Of a DNA stretch of 50,333 nt, positions 11,860 to 13,335 are shown piece by piece; the stretch's first letter is position 1, and every line of letters starts with the position of its first letter. Made by a program: the position numbers and the translations under genes. Source of the stretch: an uncultured Aquimarina sp. Lineage in GTDB: Bacteria > Bacteroidota > Bacteroidia > Flavobacteriales > Flavobacteriaceae. The stretch spans positions 1 to 50,333 of the forward strand of contig CALFCI010000020.1 in NCBI GenBank assembly GCA_937951135.1. The letters run 5' to 3'. A model generated the notes under the pieces. The model ran no database searches. It was not told the DNA's origin and saw nothing but the letters and a program-made list of their open reading frames with translations.

Positions 11860-13335
<1,476 letters not shown>

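Follow-up and report, generated by a model that had tools for sequence, protein, structure and literature searches.

In the Aquimarina genome considered here, guaB, the gene of IMP dehydrogenase (IMPDH), carries a stop codon inside a reading frame that is otherwise conserved. Does this codon mean that the organism has lost GMP synthesis, does the cell make an enzyme in spite of it, or is one base of a draft sequence simply wrong? The window that we analysed, that is the whole stretch of DNA in which the gene lies, is contig C20, which is 50,333 bases long. The genome to which it belongs totals 3,111,875 bases in 164 contigs and is 78% complete.

The guaB frame and its internal stop codon

The guaB frame extends from 11860 to 13335 on the plus strand and comprises 492 codons, the natural TAA counted. 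It is not one uninterrupted reading frame, since codon 146 is a TAA (12295-12297, plus strand); no other internal stop is found within it. The phase is identical before and after this codon, and the Pfam IMPDH family is matched on either side, which confirms the single in-frame nonsense codon reported in the preliminary description. The N piece (11860-12294, plus strand; 145 codons) contains the first part of the barrel and CBS1 (residues 97-144), and the C piece (12298-13335, plus strand; 345 codons followed by the natural TAA) contains CBS2 (residues 153-207), the remaining part of the barrel and the catalytic loop, GPGSICTTR, which begins at residue 303 and is intact, as had been claimed. 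The IMPDH match covers residues 12-105 in the N piece, corresponding to profile positions 1-83, and residues 55-331 in the C piece, corresponding to positions 82-345. The two pieces therefore hold the IMPDH barrel with a nested CBS pair and the catalytic Cys loop. With respect to guaB as it is commonly found (PF00478, with the nested CBS pair PF00571), the domain order, the catalytic loop, the length and the promoter element are the same, and the protein is 91% identical to the nearest row compared; the difference consists in one in-frame TAA at codon 146.

The stop had been located in the CBS module and not in the barrel. It does fall within the module, precisely at the CBS1/CBS2 junction, but the second half of the statement does not hold, because the Pfam matches show that the CBS pair is nested in the barrel, which is therefore cut as well. 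For this reason, neither the N piece nor the C piece should be functional by itself.

The promoter is also preserved, in agreement with what had been described. A Bacteroidetes-type -7 promoter element, TATATTTG (11829-11836, plus strand), is present 31 bases upstream of the guaB ATG; we take this sequence, and the general form TAnnTTTG, to represent the Bacteroidetes -7 consensus. Among the 21 genus relatives compared (out of 25 guaB loci of the genus), 20 have TAnnTTTG at -31 or -32, so that both the element and its spacing are kept. Downstream of the gene, where a terminator had been announced, there is a near-symmetric, terminator-like hairpin of 14 pairs (13357-13387, without assigned strand but listed on the minus strand), although the search found one hairpin against a mean of 1.2 in shuffled sequences, which is weak on count alone. 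No Rfam match was obtained anywhere in the window.

Conservation of codon 146 and of the rest of the gene

Residue 146 was compared in 109 relatives' rows, which were drawn from two collections and in some cases represent the same genome. Glu was found in 106 rows, Gln in 2 and Ile in 1, and when identical rows were merged Glu was still present in 104 out of 107. A stop at this position was found in none of the 109 rows, and thus the split is not shared by relatives. The codon itself could be read for 98 of the 109 rows (GAA in 66, GAG in 31 and CAG in 1); the earlier statement that relatives have Glu, encoded by GAA, is therefore right for the amino acid but not for GAA alone, GAG being frequent too. 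An uninterrupted guaB was found in 34 of the 35 relatives searched, the remaining one giving no match. When the C piece was used as query, the four best of 80 loci belonged to Aquimarina, which places the genome with this genus. A 30-base pattern around the stop, meant to reveal sequence of the same species, had no match among the genome contigs, in a collection that may omit records very near this genome.

Apart from the TAA, guaB shows no sign of decay. At 170 sites that are invariant in all other rows, one change was observed, I379L. No change at these sites is seen in the 23 distinct rows of the genus, while at least one is seen in 15 of the 107 distinct rows. With respect to four relatives, codon positions 1 and 2 are 92-95% identical in both pieces and position 3 is 50-63% identical, a third-position divergence as high as constraint predicts. 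One change in 170 sites and a preserved promoter element are not what characterises a pseudogene established long enough to show further decay or relaxed constraint.

The draft assembly and other interrupted genes

Among the contig ends compared, seven pairs share exactly 141 bases (L200 with L222 and L146 with L208, for example). Two contigs that match each other at their ends in every way, and account for six rows, were set aside before this count; the other contig-end overlaps measure 93-134 bases (nine rows). We read 141-base end overlaps as pointing to de Bruijn assembly with k = 141, as is usual with short-read metagenome assemblers, and the assembly indeed looks like one of this kind. 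De Bruijn short-read assemblers merge strain variants and leave few indels. It follows that a lone substitution fits such an assembly better than a frameshift would.

Other interrupted genes were searched in 976,473 bases (31%) of the genome in two ways. In the first, 944 ORFs from 1.2 Mb of a genome of the same genus, G003, were used as reference; 112 of them were matched (best match of at least 50% identity), corresponding to 33,782 residues. Three ORFs were flagged, namely guaB, a natural gene end, presumably of a murQ-like gene, and a 41-residue remnant with an internal stop (L133 2158-2280, plus strand; G000:C13), which matches the end of a 271-residue G003 ORF. Among the 112 matched ORFs, guaB was the only clear case of an internal stop. 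No frameshift was flagged, in a test that covers matched pieces at E values of 1e-10 or better and that short shifted tails would escape.

The second search, based on coding statistics and independent of any reference, looked for stops within coding stretches. When stops were simulated at random codons, it would have detected 2552 in 4000 trials. In the 976,473 bases it gave 38 candidates, as compared to 43 in 1,200,000 bases of G003; no Met occurs within the next ten codons in 21 of the former and 19 of the latter. These counts are raw and include ordinary neighbouring genes; 9 of the 38 candidates were read out in full, and the others were judged by their short context. The raw counts are similar in the two genomes, and the idea of a genome-wide decay was discarded. 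One candidate, L200 142 (minus strand), sits at the end of a contig, the final 141 bases of which also occur on another; L196 7052 was a further candidate.

Besides guaB, the coding scan added one convincing case, recQ. On contig C27 (G000:C27), 524 codons are followed by an in-frame TAA (L149 18268-18270, plus strand), which lies between the RQC and HRDC domains, and then by 195 codons with the HRDC domain, whereas recQ is open across 702-742 codons in all 10 genus relatives searched. The stop falls in a variable linker before HRDC, where three of four relatives have a gap and one has Gln, which suggests that the truncation may be real and mild. Internal TAA codons are therefore not common in the conserved genes of the part searched, guaB standing alone among the 112 matched ORFs and recQ being added by the coding scan. 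Contig C152 carries another RecQ-like frame, which is 740 codons long.

A wrong or rare base in the consensus as the favoured explanation

The explanation that we favour, with a probability of roughly 0.5, is that the TAA arose from an erroneous base in the draft consensus, or from a base of a minority strain that was retained by the assembler. In the population, guaB would then most likely be intact and its product an ordinary IMP dehydrogenase. In favour of this explanation are the incomplete genome in many contigs, the 141-base overlaps, the lack of any other decay in guaB and the state of three other genes: the guaA frame is open (524 codons), and the contig that carries guaB also contains purA (window 1100-2371, minus strand) and a spoT/relA-type gene (window 3192-5396, minus strand), each of full length. 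About 5.0% of the single-base changes in long ORFs of this genome give a stop. Counting the stops in guaB and recQ as errors would give an error rate of 8.8e-5 per base; recQ alone gives half this value, which is the fairer figure, because guaB was chosen for its stop. Such a rate is, in our judgement, unremarkable for a draft genome. On the other hand, the absence of frameshifts in the matched ORFs, together with the absence of stops inside 48 ABC and 8 GTP_EFTU matches in the whole genome, indicates that the assembly is not generally poor. Also against a wrong base are the possibility that the recQ stop is a genuine truncation, and I379L, which is one invariant-site change more than any distinct row of the genus shows. 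If the base is wrong, the value of the case is limited to a caution: a single stop in a draft genome should not be taken for auxotrophy.

A possible recent nonsense allele

It is also possible, if somewhat doubtful, that the codon is a real and recent nonsense allele. The strain would be unable to convert IMP to XMP and would live on guanine or guanosine by means of HPRT, the mutation being too young for further decay. A single stop in a gene without other decay suits such a young allele. The interruption of recQ also speaks for this reading, as does the presence of hpt, one of the salvage genes for which the preliminary description had suggested looking. The picture of uptake is less favourable. 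The nucleoside transporter PF07662 was not found in the genome, whereas all 12 genus relatives searched have one; the base permease PF00860 was not found either, although 10 of the 12 genus relatives are likewise without a match. Both absences are weak, because 22% of the genome is missing. Moreover, a loss of guaB would be at odds with the uninterrupted gene of nearly all the relatives searched. Were the allele real, the organism would have become a guanine auxotroph recently, while the rest of its genus retains guaB.

A second guaB, which had also been proposed as a way to tolerate the stop, was not found by PF00478 in the 78% complete genome. The only other match to this family (C98, 32.3 bits) was rejected, as it scores 208.8 bits as a nitronate monooxygenase and 43 as an IMPDH and is thus a protein of the nitronate-monooxygenase type. 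A second strong guaB match is rare in relatives too, being present in 1 of the 34 with a match.

A recent nonsense allele and a wrong base in a draft genome resemble each other, and the case at hand, in that a single inactivating base occurs in a gene that is otherwise conserved. Most likely, the stop in guaB, a normally essential gene, is one or the other rather than new biology. The preliminary description is therefore right as a description, and its alternatives are sensible, but a wrong base is at least as likely as the loss of GMP synthesis that it put first, because guaB is otherwise undecayed and the sequence comes from a draft assembly of the short-read type.

Possible restart or read-through at the stop

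It is very improbable that the two pieces form a working split IMPDH, in which translation would restart at 12325 or 12328 and CBS1-CBS2 pairing would join the pieces into a complete barrel. The position of the stop at the CBS1/CBS2 junction agrees with such an arrangement. In a model of a relative's IMPDH, which was used for the CBS loop only, residues 144-151, among which the stop falls, are predicted to form a loop; the block of the CBS part has pLDDT values of 70-84, while the whole model is poor (mean 51.5). A candidate start codon is also present: the new ATG that had been noticed 10 codons after the stop is indeed the first in-frame one (12328-12330, plus strand; codon 157), it is preceded by an in-frame GTG at 12325, and an out-of-frame ORF of 8 codons that begins at 12302 terminates in a TGA sharing one base with it; it might serve for a restart. 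Furthermore, according to PMC10912719, the CBS module is dispensable for catalysis, and IMPDH without it has been engineered in E. coli and is known from few natural examples; in the available part of PMC4338043, CBS deletion appears only in the reference list. The guaB lesion resembles these CBS-less enzymes in that it sits within the dispensable module, but a CBS deletion leaves one chain, whereas here the chain ends and the barrel is cut, each piece having only a part of it. Against a split enzyme are also the lack of any such split at codon 146 in the relatives' rows and of a counterpart among the papers listed in literature searches, at the level of titles and abstract openings. If it worked, the CBS pair would be the natural assembly handle of a two-piece barrel.

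Read-through, with a suppressor tRNA or recoding inserting a residue at UAA, is hardly credible: two genes with a single TAA each, guaB and recQ, in the 31% of the genome scanned would suit it, but no UUA anticodon was found among the 19 tRNAs read (an incomplete set, from 150 scored out of 245 first-look candidates), and general suppression would be costly where TAA terminates 402 of 585 long frames.

Interrupted frames in the reference genome

In G003, the coding scan also showed an in-frame TAA at L161 15325 (plus strand), between coding stretches of 405 and 617 codons. At L169 19195 and L234 3588, both on the plus strand, apparently the same frame occurs twice, with a TAG at the same place, and it looks like a mobile-element gene.
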